Shown: in pieces, positions 58,284-64,000 of the stretch
Numbering within the stretch: the first letter of the stretch is position 1
How the letters are laid out: each line of letters starts with the position of its first letter
Source: a bacterium
GTDB taxonomy: Bacteria > SAR324 > XYD2-FULL-50-16
Length of the DNA: 64,000 nt
Assembly (NCBI GenBank): GCA_018830885.1
Contig: JAHJRI010000364.1
Location: 1 to 64,000 of the forward strand
Direction of reading: 5' to 3'
Notes under the pieces: model-generated
What the model was told of the DNA's origin: nothing
The model's database searches: none
Seen by the model: the letters and a program-made list of their open reading frames with translations, nothing else
Program-made: the position numbers and the translations under genes

Positions 58284-59453
58284 TCAGCCATCACCGGAAA
58301 TCCGGTTGACCATCTCCACGATGTCAATTTTCAAACTGTTCTGATATCCCCGGGTTGTTTCCAGATCCTTGTGTCTGGCCAGCTTTTGGACCCATGAAAG
58401 ACTAAATCCATCTGCCAGCAGGTTGGTGACCACCGATGCCCTGATCCCTTGAAGCGGTTTGACTCCGCTGATGTCCATTTCCTGCAGAATCTTCCGGATC
58501 GGTCGCCCCAGGGTGGTCAGATTCTGATAGAATTGACTTCCTGACCCATCATCCAGGTACCAGACCTCTTCCGGCTTCCGGTCTTTCAGATCAGTCTCCA
58601 GAAAAGCAGCCAGGTTATTTGAAATCGGGATGGTCTCTTCATGCTGCCCCTTGACAAACCACTCCAATTTCTCATTATCGACGATGTACAGTTGCCTGTT
58701 GTGCAGGTCGATCTCACTCAGCCGGAGGGACCAAACCTCGCCACCCCGCATGGCGGTTTCACACATCATGTAAAAGGCCCGGATCATGTTCTGATATCCC
58801 AGCCTGAAAAGTCTGTTCCTTGCTCCCAGGTGTTTCTCCTGCAGCCGTTTCTGAATATCCTGAAGTTGGCTCCTGGATAGCGTTTTTGGTTCCTTTTTGG
58901 TCTTTTTGGGTTTTTTCAGTCGTATCAGCCTGCAGTACTCGTTCTCTTCTGCCCAATAGAAAAATGTTTGCAGGTTGCGAAAGTGTTTGTGGATCGTGTT
59001 TCGTGCCAGTCCCCGTTCGGTCAGAAAGTTGATGAAGTCGTTGTTGTACTCCTTTTTGAAATCGTTGATCGGATGGTCCTTGACGCTGTCCAGGTAATAC
59101 ACGGCCGTTCTTTTGTAATCGGCATGAGTCCGGCTGCCCTTGTCACCATATGCCTTGACATGCTCCAGCCAGGCTTTCATCACGATGCGGATCCATTCCG
59201 AATCCGGTGGCGGTTCTTCCTCTTGAATCTCCCTTAGCGCTGTCAGTTCTCTCAGCTTTGTATGGTAAAGGTGATCAAGAAATATCTCCTTCTCCCGGGT
59301 GTTCCTGGAGACCTTCCTGCCCGACTTGGTGATCTTGAATTCATAATCCGCCAGATTGCACAACTTCAACCGCCTGCCCTGTTTCCCGCTTTTCATTTTC
59401 TCCAGGCGGAACCGGCCCATTACAGCAGTATCGGTGAAGTAAATCTTACTCAT
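58284..59453 (-). CDS. Tyrosine recombinase/phage-type integrase
   Basis: Core-binding region then CETAMRGGEVWSLRLSEID (Arg I), PLQGIRASVVTNLLADGFSLSWVQKLARHKDLETTRGYQ (Arg II, His, Tyr); HxxR His is Gln. Confidence 0.87.
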   Translation of the reverse strand: MSKIYFTDTAVMGRFRLEKMKSGKQGRRLKLCNLADYEFKITKSGRKVSRNTREKEIFLDHLYHTKLRELTALREIQEEEPPPDSEWIRIVMKAWLEHVKAYGDKGSRTHADYKRTAVYYLDSVKDHPINDFKKEYNNDFINFLTERGLARNTIHKHFRNLQTFFYWAEENEYCRLIRLKKPKKTKKEPKTLSRSQLQDIQKRLQEKHLGARNRLFRLGYQNMIRAFYMMCETAMRGGEVWSLRLSEIDLHNRQLYIVDNEKLEWFVKGQHEETIPISNNLAAFLETDLKDRKPEEVWYLDDGSGSQFYQNLTTLGRPIRKILQEMDISGVKPLQGIRASVVTNLLADGFSLSWVQKLARHKDLETTRGYQNSLKIDIVEMVNRISGDG

Positions 59454-59586: not shown

Positions 59587-60060
59587 TTATTGGTTTTTGT
59601 ATTTAGCTTTCCACTCCTGTTTTAATGTAGCCCAATCTGAAAAAGACTGTTTTAGGATGTCACTTGAATGAATTCCGTTGCCGAAGACTCCAAGTCTTTT
59701 AAAAGAGGGATAGCAACCCTGTTTTTGAAGGGTATAAATAAGTCTTTCTTCCCATTTTGAATTTTGGTCATATCCAAAACAAAAAACATCAGGATCCAAA
59801 TTAATAACTGAATAAAGACCATCTTCAAGTGAATCAATGTGACAACTATCAACCCATTTTAAACGCATAATGTTTTTGCATCGGTCTTTCTCAGAGAAAA
59901 CTGGTAATCGATTTTTATTCTTGAATACTATTCTGTCAGGAACCACTATCACGGAAAGAGAACCCAGTTCTGAAGCGTTTTTTAAAAATGAATAATGCCC
60001 TTCGTGCAGCAAATCAAAAGTTCCCCAAGTTACAACCTTATTACGGCGAATTAATTCCAT
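59587..60060 (-). CDS. Cytidylyltransferase-like (HxGH) nucleotidyltransferase
   Basis: VVTWGTFDLLHEGHYSFLKNASELGSLSVIVVPDRI; overlaps upstream HD-domain gene by 20 nt. Confidence 0.82.
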   Translation of the reverse strand: MELIRRNKVVTWGTFDLLHEGHYSFLKNASELGSLSVIVVPDRIVFKNKNRLPVFSEKDRCKNIMRLKWVDSCHIDSLEDGLYSVINLDPDVFCFGYDQNSKWEERLIYTLQKQGCYPSFKRLGVFGNGIHSSDILKQSFSDWATLKQEWKAKYKNQ

Positions 60061-61696
60061 AATCTTTATACAGTCTTATTATTCCGTTTAAATAGTTGAT
60101 TGTTTTTACTTTGAAATCATCCAAAATCTCATTTGCTTGATCAGCGTTAACTTGTACGATTTCGGTGAAAAAACCTTCAACAAGTGGCTGTAGTTTATTT
60201 TTATACAACGATTCTGTTGTCTTTGTGGGATCGCTAAGAATTTCTTCTATTTCAGAATATATAAAATCAAACGGAAAAGATAGGTAGCAATTTGAGACGT
60301 TTAGGTTATAAGCCTTTATTTTGGATAAGTCACTGAACTCATCTGTATTTCCTCCGTAGGCATGTCGCATATGTCGGAAAACTTCGCATATATTAAGGGG
60401 TCGTTGAGTTATCTCATCATAAAACATGTCTTCTTTAAAATCCTCGGCTTTAATTGCAGGAATATCTATGAGATCAAACATAACCCTTCCTTGTGCACTC
60501 ATGTTTACCTTGATCTTCAAACCTTCCTCGATAGCTTTAAAATCTCTCCAGCCATTTTCTCGTTTCCAATACTCGTCTGTTAAATTTTGCTTGTAGTCAT
60601 GAATCTTTCTGAAATTTGCTATTGGAAGCACTTCATAGAGAATTCTATAACGGATCCTTTCAGCAACTTCATTGATAAAGGGGTTTTTTGATTTTTCAAA
60701 TAGGTTTAAAAGATCATTGTCCGTTAAGAACGCAAGTTCATTAGGTTTTTTGTTCAAGTCTAGCAAAGCTCGAATGATCAACTCTTGGGCAGCCCTGTGA
60801 ATCGAGTTATAGTACAATCGTCTGTATACTGTTTCACGAGCTTTTAGCATTGATTCCATCGACATTGCGGATGATGCATTTAAGAATAGCCGGTTTTTGT
60901 CTTCGTGCGTATGAATCTCCATATTTGCTACAATATCCCAAATATCAACATCACCGGTTTTTACACCTGTGTAAAACGCATCTCTTCTTAAATAGTCTAA
61001 CCTATCAATACCGAAGGTAGATGGGATAAGGTCGCATAAAAAGGAGTAGCGATTCGTAAGTTCTTCATCTCCAAGATCAATAGGTTTTCCAAAGCTTAGA
61101 GCAGCAATGTTTTTTGGTTCGATTAATCCAATTGCTTCTTTCTCCTCCCCACTATATTTGCTTTCCAATACAGACTTTAAGTCACTTAAATAAGTTGGTA
61201 TCTGGTTGAAAATGGGGTCAGTCAGTTCGTTTCCGGCAATGTCCTTCCCCGTAATTAGCCGATTTCCCCATCTTTCATGTGTCCACTCACGATAAGTGAC
61301 ATCTCTTCTACAGAACATTTCAAATACATGGCAAAATGGACCGTGCCCAATATCGTGCAAAAGAGCAGATATCTCCATCGCCCTATATGTTATTTCATTA
61401 AATTGAATTTTCTTTATATTGTCGGTATGTGTCTGAGAGTGAAAATCAGACAATCTATCATACGCTAATTGAGCAAGAAAACTCGAACCAACACTATGCT
61501 CAAATCGAGTATGAGTTGCTCCTGGAAAAACTAAATACAAGGTTGAAAGCTGCCTTATGCCACGGAGACGCTGAAAAACCTCTAAATCGATAAGTCTGCG
61601 TACAATGCCTGAAGTTGGAATGTATCCGTAAAGAGGATCATAGTATAATCCCTTTCCCAATTTAGGAAGTTTCTTTTGTACCTTTGCTAGTCTCAT
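60041..61696 (-). CDS. HD-superfamily phosphohydrolase (dNTPase/SAMHD1-like, COG1078 type)
   Basis: GATHTRFEHSVGSSFLAQLAYD; ISALLHDIGHGPFCHVFE; FGIDRLDYLRRDAFYTGV: complete H...HD...D metal site. Confidence 0.88.
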   Translation of the reverse strand: MRLAKVQKKLPKLGKGLYYDPLYGYIPTSGIVRRLIDLEVFQRLRGIRQLSTLYLVFPGATHTRFEHSVGSSFLAQLAYDRLSDFHSQTHTDNIKKIQFNEITYRAMEISALLHDIGHGPFCHVFEMFCRRDVTYREWTHERWGNRLITGKDIAGNELTDPIFNQIPTYLSDLKSVLESKYSGEEKEAIGLIEPKNIAALSFGKPIDLGDEELTNRYSFLCDLIPSTFGIDRLDYLRRDAFYTGVKTGDVDIWDIVANMEIHTHEDKNRLFLNASSAMSMESMLKARETVYRRLYYNSIHRAAQELIIRALLDLNKKPNELAFLTDNDLLNLFEKSKNPFINEVAERIRYRILYEVLPIANFRKIHDYKQNLTDEYWKRENGWRDFKAIEEGLKIKVNMSAQGRVMFDLIDIPAIKAEDFKEDMFYDEITQRPLNICEVFRHMRHAYGGNTDEFSDLSKIKAYNLNVSNCYLSFPFDFIYSEIEEILSDPTKTTESLYKNKLQPLVEGFFTEIVQVNADQANEILDDFKVKTINYLNGIIRLYKDYGINSP

Positions 61697-62170
61697 ACAA
61701 TCTCCGAACTGCTATGGGATAAATTGTGCAAAAAATATTTCAGCTTTGAACAATCATTCAAGCAACTATCGATTATATGTTTCGTGGGGTTGCGAAATCA
61801 ATACAATGTGTAATAGTTCGTGTCAATGGGAAATATTAAATCAGTCAAGAAAGCACTCCCCCGCCCGGATTATTTTTATATAGAAAGCTAAGAAGCGGCT
61901 GTTCTCTCATGCCCTCTTTTCTGTGTGGATTGTTTATTATAAAGCGATTACGGGGGAAAAAGGGGTTAGATAAAATAGCTAGGCGTGGCCATTATTGGCT
62001 GTTTTTGACGGAAATTCCGCAGCTCTATCTAAGAGCAGACTGGTCTTAACTAACTAAATTAATGAACTATATCTGTTCAAATCGACATTTTTTCCTGATA
62101 AACTCTATACCCTGCTGTTTTTTGAAGGGCTTTCGACGAAAAACATCAGCTGCAGTAATATGTTTACCTT

Positions 62171-63061
62171 TTAATTTTGAAAGTCAAATTTTAAAACTTC
62201 GAACCAAATCACGGCAATCCAATTAATTCCTAAATCAATAATTGGTTTAAAAAATTGGTCTGGATATATAATATCCGAGGTTGCTAAATTATTTTGCCAA
62301 GTCCCTTGTAAAAAGTGAAAATATCGGTTTCTTAATTCTATCAAAAAATCGAAGAATCCTATGAAGCTTACATTTAGCTCCTCATCTTCAATTTCGTTTT
62401 CAATATATTTATCATCGATTTTATCTTTGTATATTTTGAAATATTTTGACCTCAGTTCTTCGAATTCAAGTACATCAAACTTAATATCAATTGAAGTACT
62501 ATAAAATGGCTCTAAATTAAAAACCTCGTTAATGAAAGTTCTGAAGAACTTAATTTCACTATCGGCACCAGATTTTCCTACATACTTTTGTAGAGATCTG
62601 AATGTTTTTTTAAAATCCTTTGACCTAGAAGTATATATGAGCGGGATGCTATAACTAACTCCTTCCAAGATTCTGTATAAAAATAAAAAGGATTCTAAGT
62701 ATCTGTTATTTAGCCGTGCTAAAACGCAATTGATCACTTCAATCTCTATTGGGTCATAAAAATCTCGATTACGATGAAATTCTGAAAAGTAGTTGGCAAC
62801 GTCAAATATTTTAACTTCTTCTGGGAATAAATCTGAAATTATTTGTTGTTTGATAGTTCTATTATTTAAAAATGGTAGCTGAAAGTAGTTCGTTCTTAAT
62901 ACATAGTTTTTATTTGAGAATTCATCTAAAACTTTACATGTACCAGAAAGGATTCTGAAAATGCCTAAAGATGATTTATGGGTTCTTTCTAAAAATAAAC
63001 CCTTAAGTTTTTCATTTCCAGAATGAAAAATTGGATCTTTAAAAATGTATCGACTACTCAT
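62171..63061 (-). CDS. Uncharacterised protein with C-terminal HEPN-like RNxxxH signature
   Basis: FFDFLIELRNRYFHFLQGTW contains R-N-x3-H in a predicted helix; ATGAGTAG 8-nt overlap with upstream gene. Confidence 0.6.
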   Translation of the reverse strand: MSSRYIFKDPIFHSGNEKLKGLFLERTHKSSLGIFRILSGTCKVLDEFSNKNYVLRTNYFQLPFLNNRTIKQQIISDLFPEEVKIFDVANYFSEFHRNRDFYDPIEIEVINCVLARLNNRYLESFLFLYRILEGVSYSIPLIYTSRSKDFKKTFRSLQKYVGKSGADSEIKFFRTFINEVFNLEPFYSTSIDIKFDVLEFEELRSKYFKIYKDKIDDKYIENEIEDEELNVSFIGFFDFLIELRNRYFHFLQGTWQNNLATSDIIYPDQFFKPIIDLGINWIAVIWFEVLKFDFQN

Positions 63062-64000
63062 TTGTTAACTCGCTGAAATATTCAAGCAGTTCATCAGAAT
63101 CAAGATCCTTGTATTCATTGAAGTTCTTAAAATATTCACATGACAATTCTCTTCTGAACTTTCCCACCTTTATTCTAGATGGATTAAATTCTGAAAAGGC
63201 ACTATCGAAGGTAGTAATAGCATTTTTAAATTCGGATACAGAAAGAGATAAAATCGTTTTTGAGGAGCTTTTCATACCAACTGCAAAACCAACTAGGTTA
63301 TTTGTAAGTTTGAGCCATTTTAAGCATTTTGGATTTTCTTGGAATTTTGAAAGAGATTTAATTACATCTTCAAATTTTGATTTATAGGTATTTGGTTCTA
63401 TGGACATAATTTTGTTTACCAAAAGCTCATCCATTTTTTCTTCTATAATTTTTTTGTTATCAATAATTGGACTTTCAGCCATAAATGCCAAGTAGGCTTG
63501 AATGATATCGGATTTTCTAAACGCCTTTCTGATGATTTTATTAGCAGCTTCTTTTTCCGTTTGAATCTCTAATCCAAATTCATTAAAGTCAAAAGCATTT
63601 GCCATCATCATTTCAACTTGATGCCTTGGAGTCATAGGACGTTGACCATTGTTTAGAGTAATCATTCTATAAAGGAGTTTTTCAACTGAATCGCAAAAAA
63701 GAAAATTGATATATAACTTTCTATCTTTATTAATTTTTTTAGAATCAACTAAACGTGATAGGGTATTCAGTCTCTGGATCCCATCTAATACGAATGACTT
63801 TTTTATATTTTTGCTAACAAATGCTGTAATTTCATTTAGATTAGAATCAGACTTAATATCAGGATTAATGAATGCTATTGTTATTGGAGGCATTACACAG
63901 CCGGCATCCAAGTCCCTTTCAAGCTTTTTATAAAACTTTTTATCTTGTCTTTTTCTTTGAAAATCAGTTTTATCAATTAAAGGAATAAGAGTATTAAAAG
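63054..64000 (-). CDS. DGxQR-motif protein (DUF262/DGQHR/DndB-like, ParB/Srx-type), 5' truncated by window edge
   Basis: KKSFVLDGIQRLNTLSRLV and MITLNNGQRPMTPRHQVEMMM; frame stays open beyond listed TTG start: ...LIPLIDKTDFQRKRQDKKFYKKLERDLDAGCVMPPITIAFINPD. Confidence 0.6.
   Translation of the reverse strand, partial: FNTLIPLIDKTDFQRKRQDKKFYKKLERDLDAGCVMPPITIAFINPDIKSDSNLNEITAFVSKNIKKSFVLDGIQRLNTLSRLVDSKKINKDRKLYINFLFCDSVEKLLYRMITLNNGQRPMTPRHQVEMMMANAFDFNEFGLEIQTEKEAANKIIRKAFRKSDIIQAYLAFMAESPIIDNKKIIEEKMDELLVNKIMSIEPNTYKSKFEDVIKSLSKFQENPKCLKWLKLTNNLVGFAVGMKSSSKTILSLSVSEFKNAITTFDSAFSEFNPSRIKVGKFRRELSCEYFKNFNEYKDLDSDELLEYFSELTNE

Follow-up and report, generated by a model that had tools for sequence, protein, structure and literature searches.

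A SAMHD1-like dNTPase candidate gene overlapping an HxGH nucleotidyltransferase gene in the integrase-repressor cargo of a P2-related prophage

Introduction

Do two overlapping prophage genes, one for an HD phosphohydrolase (HD) and one for a small HxGH nucleotidyltransferase (NT), form a joint unit, and what might such a unit do? The genes lie in a 64,000-nucleotide stretch of bacterial DNA, referred to here as the window, and the original prediction took them for a joint nucleotide-metabolism or nucleotide-signalling unit on an accessory segment. A precedent exists in the Clover system, in which the dGTPase CloA is restrained by p3diT made by the adjacent nucleotidyltransferase CloB (PMC12265719); there, the partner gene supplies a nucleotide signal that keeps a dNTPase effector in check. 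The analysis described here yields a SAMHD1-like dNTPase candidate with an unusual coupled nucleotidyltransferase, found in a single instance, for which a two-gene anti-phage unit, with a functional link between the genes, is possible.

Results

Both open reading frames are intact and lie on the minus strand (Table 1), and the coordinates, the exact extent of the overlap and the neighbouring integrase were all as originally described. The pair is located in AT-rich cargo, in the interval from integrase to repressor of a P2-related prophage that was followed from window position 58284 past the window end to the end of the contig at 89174 (loci L052 and L187); the contig stops within the prophage, and the right attachment site lies beyond it. 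Reading from the integrase, the HD-NT pair is followed by a second cargo block, an XRE repressor, Rha and a CII/CP76 regulator, then by a Toprim primase, ParA and a C5-methyltransferase with Vsr, and finally by the portal, terminase and major capsid genes in a P2-like arrangement. The GC content of HD and NT is 35-37% and that of the DzbA-like block is 29-33%; the integrase has 50%, and Rha, CII and the primase have ~49-53%. The integrase-repressor cargo position of P2-related prophages is a hotspot of anti-phage defence (Rousset et al., PMC9122126), and the HD-NT pair occupies this same position in the company of other defence genes. What had been called an accessory segment is this prophage cargo, next to a DzbA-like gene.

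Table 1. Features of the HD-NT locus and its surroundings (window coordinates; contig coordinates where stated)
Feature	Position	Strand	Remarks
Tyrosine integrase of P2-related prophage, 389 aa	58284..59453	-	Phage_integrase 1.2e-16; 133 nt downstream of NT
NT (HxGH nucleotidyltransferase) gene, 157 aa	59587..60060	-	Intact ORF
HD/NT overlap, exactly 20 nt	60041..60060	-	NT start codon within HD 3' end; from sequence
HD phosphohydrolase gene, 551 aa	60041..61696	-	Intact ORF
Shine-Dalgarno-like GGAG	61697..61710	-	Close upstream of HD start (TTCGGAGATTGTATG); read from sequence
Candidate sigma-70-like promoter of HD-NT pair	61772..61801	-	TTGATT-18-TATAAT, 10/12; such sites no commoner than chance
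296-aa cargo gene	62171..63061	-	No family match; neighbour of DzbA-like gene, overlapping
DzbA-like (GmrSD_N-related) defence gene	63054..64000 (full gene 63054-64076 of contig)	-	PADLOC 1.2e-44

This setting also bears on the possibility that the pair is a phage nucleotide-metabolism cassette which adjusts host pools for the prophage's own use and has no role in defence. Such a cassette would be in keeping with the prophage location and with the nature of both proteins as nucleotide enzymes, and another phage-borne NT sits in a sugar-nucleotide cassette. We consider it unlikely, however, since the genes are found in the AT-rich integrase-repressor cargo beside a DzbA-like defence gene and away from the replication genes.

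The second cargo block consists of the 296-aa gene, the DzbA-like gene and a gene for a 667-aa AAA/STAND-like ATPase. It occupies window positions 62171-64000 and continues on the contig (G000:C328) to 66280 (L052:6172-10281), and it may be either a Dazbog variant or a new defence system made up of three genes. The 296-aa gene is probably the partner of the DzbA-like gene and not of the HD-NT pair. Further along the same prophage (L187:660-3774, contig 74659-77773) are genes that, as read from their sequence, encode a C5-cytosine methyltransferase, a 377-aa probable restriction protein and a Vsr-type endonuclease, and this cluster is a third candidate defence locus. The gene between ParA and the methyltransferase genes (L052:17799-18449, contig 73798-74448) encodes a protein of 216 aa that weakly matches the EVE domain; EVE domains are frequently linked to the restriction of modified bases.

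The family matches of HD and NT are both far above chance. HD matches Pfam HD_assoc_2 with 30.7 bits (cut-off 23.1) and Pfam HD with 20.5 bits, slightly under the cut-off of 22, and it matches phrog_35128, a family of unknown function, at 2.2e-25. Comparison with SAMHD1 structures by phmmer gave values of 1e-28 to 1e-17, and its nearest solved relatives are 2hek, the fungal SAMHD1 9mr6, 2q14 and human SAMHD1. A model of HD built from 46 sequences had a pLDDT of 77, with the catalytic core mostly >85, and a Foldseek search with this model placed the fungal SAMHD1 9mr6 (1.3e-19, TMt 0.73) and human SAMHD1 at the top, at E values of 1e-19 to 1e-17 and with most TMt values at ~0.65-0.73.

The residues expected of a SAMHD1-type enzyme are present as well. 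The complete H...HD...D set noted originally is found at H67, H114-D115 and D231, which correspond to the metal ligands H167, H206, D207 and D311 of SAMHD1, and the second-metal/catalytic H140 and E141 correspond to H233 and E234. In the alignment the dNTP pocket is kept, with R64, Q49, L50, Y235, D239 and R287 at the positions of SAMHD1 R164, Q149, L150, Y315, D319 and R366. The list of HD catalytic residues comprises all of these apart from Q49 and L50, together with H118, H123 and R238, and SAMHD1 H210 and H215 join the residues named above as having identical counterparts in HD. This comparison follows the residue numbers of human SAMHD1, some of which are given in PMC12042053. Because the catalytic and dNTP-contact residues of SAMHD1 are identical in HD, dNTPase activity is likely, and HD is predicted from its sequence and modelled fold to be a SAMHD1-like dNTPase, much as the original prediction had it.

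The regulation of HD, by comparison, probably differs from that of SAMHD1. The residues for base recognition in allosteric site 1 are kept (D37, Q42 and R45, for SAMHD1 D137, Q142 and R145); the counterparts of SAMHD1 K116, N119, H123, H125, Q375, H376 and K377 are changed to G16, Y19, Y23, Y25, Y296, N297 and S298, so that effector binding or regulation is probably not the same. Human SAMHD1 and the fungal enzyme (9mr6, PMC12042053) thus share with HD the fold, the catalytic residues and the base-recognition part of allosteric site 1, whereas identity in the structural match is ~20%, and HD lacks a SAM domain and carries an extra C-terminal region in addition to the changed allosteric residues. 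This region, which starts near residue 360, is unassigned and its model is poor; used as the sole query it gave no match in plasmids. With the bacterial defence dGTPases (PADLOC dGTPase; NF041026) HD has the HD core in common, but its score against them is only ~15-20 bits, and the match covers the profile in part. A second relative of HD is encoded in the same genome (G000:C74:7291-8220; L002 and L053), in a 447-aa open frame with 34% identity, and it is probably of a chromosomal housekeeping type.

NT bears out the earlier description of a small cytidylyltransferase-like gene with the motif GTFDLLHEGH. It matches Pfam CTP_transf_like at 1.6e-14 and TIGR00125 at 1.3e-13, has the fold of the cytidylyltransferase superfamily, although its model is unreliable across residues 114-139, and finds its best match by both sequence and fold in 3glv of Thermoplasma volcanium. 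The other motifs are GYDQ, which also occurs in the RibL-like protein encoded in a riboflavin operon of Thermoplasmatales (L109), and GIHSSDI, a remnant of the second motif SSxxR that is only partly kept (IHSSDILKQ, with SS present and the Arg absent). In a tree of 31 proteins NT grouped with four archaeal-type (RibL-type) FAD synthases (support 97/91), its own branch measuring 1.64-1.78 changes per site, and because of the long branches its exact position is unsure. Two other assignments were rejected: as a TagD glycerol-3-phosphate cytidylyltransferase NT scores 37 bits against a cut-off of 165 (AU p 0.022 for the grouping), as RfaE/HldE domain II it scores 44 bits against 181.5 (AU p 4e-5). 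Its score is far under the curated CoaD cut-off too.

NT is a diverged, long-branch relative of the archaeal RibL FAD synthase by its sequence. With RibL (3glv-like; PMC11423594) it shares HxGH and GYDQ and the best match by sequence, fold and tree; it differs in its very long branch, in a second motif without the Arg, in an extra C-terminal helix and in its location outside any riboflavin operon. Since a canonical RibF is encoded elsewhere in the genome, NT is probably not the cell's FAD synthase, adenylylation of FMN by NT would be unnecessary, and the housekeeping role was rejected. Firm placement with housekeeping FAD synthetases or TagD had been named at the outset as a finding that would speak against a joint unit; of this, the grouping with RibL-type FAD synthases stands, while the long branch, the lack of a riboflavin operon, the genome's own RibF and the rejection of TagD and RfaE go against it.

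RibL transfers an NMP from an NTP onto FMN, and the relatives of NT make dinucleotides, of which FAD is an example (PMC11423594). This favours a reading in which NT makes a nucleotide-linked molecule, as a signal or a cofactor, and HD hydrolyses that molecule and is not a dNTPase. The chemical diversity of HD enzymes speaks for it too, but the listed SAMHD1 dNTP-contact residues are all kept in HD, including the Q149/L150 pair beside the deoxyribose, and the nearest structures are SAMHD1 dNTPases, so that we consider this reading very unlikely.

The arrangement of the two genes suggests that NT is translationally coupled to HD. No Shine-Dalgarno sequence is found ahead of the NT ATG (TATAAAGATTATG), whereas HD has one, and because GTFDLLHEGH begins at residue 13 the N-terminus of NT cannot be much shorter; with its start fixed in this way, translation of NT probably depends on that of HD. 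The evidence for a functional coupling of HD and NT consists of their overlap together with the lack of a ribosome-binding site ahead of NT, and an overlap of 20 nt is by itself weak evidence. In codon make-up HD and NT are fairly alike, at a distance of 0.225, but HD lies at 0.185-0.225 from the other cargo genes, so NT is no closer to it than they are.

If the two genes worked as a unit, the pairing might be expected elsewhere. Homologues of HD were collected from genomes, IMG/VR and GTDB, at at least 208 loci and representing at least 161 distinct proteins, 114 of them with both flanks readable, and among the 161 distinct homologues listed no adjacent HxGH NT was found besides the one in the window. 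Two distant archaeal loci have an NT within 3 kb of HD, one in the riboflavin operon mentioned above (L109) and the other at L130; at neither are the genes adjacent, and neither was accepted as a pair. From the side of NT, 80 viral loci with NT relatives had no HD neighbour, and a search of 192 NT relatives gave only RfaE-, TagD- and RibL-like proteins, none of them beside an HD match among the matches listed. Single-sequence scans found no close relatives of NT in genome or viral contigs and none of HD in viral contigs; among 40 plasmid matches of HD, annotated neighbours were read at 2. A search of the available literature for a defence pair of an HxGH nucleotidyltransferase and an HD protein found none. 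Because the pairing is unique among the HD homologues listed, a joint nucleotide-signalling unit is not established: this claim of the original prediction was not borne out, and restriction of the pair to a single genome, which had been said to count against it, is what the search returned.

These searches fit an explanation in which HD is a stand-alone dNTPase gene for defence or superinfection exclusion and overlaps by chance, in a compact region, with NT, a small cargo gene unrelated to it. Homologues of HD are widespread without NT, those in prophages stand alone, so that HD needs no partner, and viral relatives of NT occur without HD. Against it stands the absence from NT of a ribosome-binding site of its own, with its probable dependence on the translation of HD, and the likeness in codon make-up would point the same way were it not within the range seen for the other cargo genes. 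We regard this explanation as plausible, if tentatively so. In the prophages of loci L054-L061 and L065, members of the HD family with ~28-32% identity occur as single copies, and these are candidates for stand-alone SAMHD1-like defence genes.

Discussion

Our own reading, offered with reservation, is that the pair is prophage defence cargo in which a SAMHD1-type dNTP-depleting enzyme is coupled to an accessory nucleotidyltransferase, following a Clover-like logic with unrelated nucleotidyltransferase chemistry. In this mechanism HD, as a SAMHD1-type dNTP triphosphohydrolase, would deplete dNTPs once another phage begins to replicate. NT, to judge from its kinship, would take the NMP of an NTP and attach it to a small phosphomonoester, giving a 5'-5' pyrophosphate-linked product similar to NAD or FAD. 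The most likely role of this product would be to tune or restrain the dNTPase, in the way that CloB acts on CloA by other chemistry. The predicted dNTP-depletion step is well supported by conserved residues and the predicted fold; regulation by the product of NT is suggested by the analogy. The dNTPase activity, the anti-phage role, the substrate of NT and the functional link of the two genes are what we infer from these comparisons.

The likeness to Clover is one of organization: both have two genes on mobile defence DNA, for an HD-superfamily dNTPase (a predicted one in the present pair) with an HE dyad and an accessory nucleotidyltransferase. In contrast to CloB, a Pol-beta-type nucleotidyltransferase that makes the 3'-5' linked p3diT, NT belongs to the HxGH superfamily (CTP_transf_like), and because of this difference in superfamily the pair is not a member of Clover. 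HD is nearest to SAMHD1, and its PDB sequence matches and best 50 fold matches comprise SAMHD1 together with further HD proteins, with no CloA among them as judged by their descriptions. A more specific version of our reading, in which NT makes a 5'-5' pyrophosphate-linked dinucleotide that gates the SAMHD1-type dNTPase, and a second superfamily of nucleotidyltransferases was recruited convergently into a Clover-like module to control immunity by dNTP depletion, seems to us quite unlikely.

Should the pair work like Clover, control of a dNTPase by a partner nucleotidyltransferase would have arisen with a second, unrelated superfamily, and there would be reason to look for nucleotide signals of a new class. 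If not, the HD gene remains a prophage-borne bacterial relative of SAMHD1 in a defence hotspot. A different association of an HxGH NT was seen in a gut phage scaffold (L093:4307-5289; MT838418.1). There the NT gene (29% identical) overlaps its neighbour at the neighbour's start, and the product of the neighbour has membrane helices at its N-terminus and weakly matches AAA ATPases; this locus is possibly another instance in which an HxGH NT is coupled to a candidate effector.
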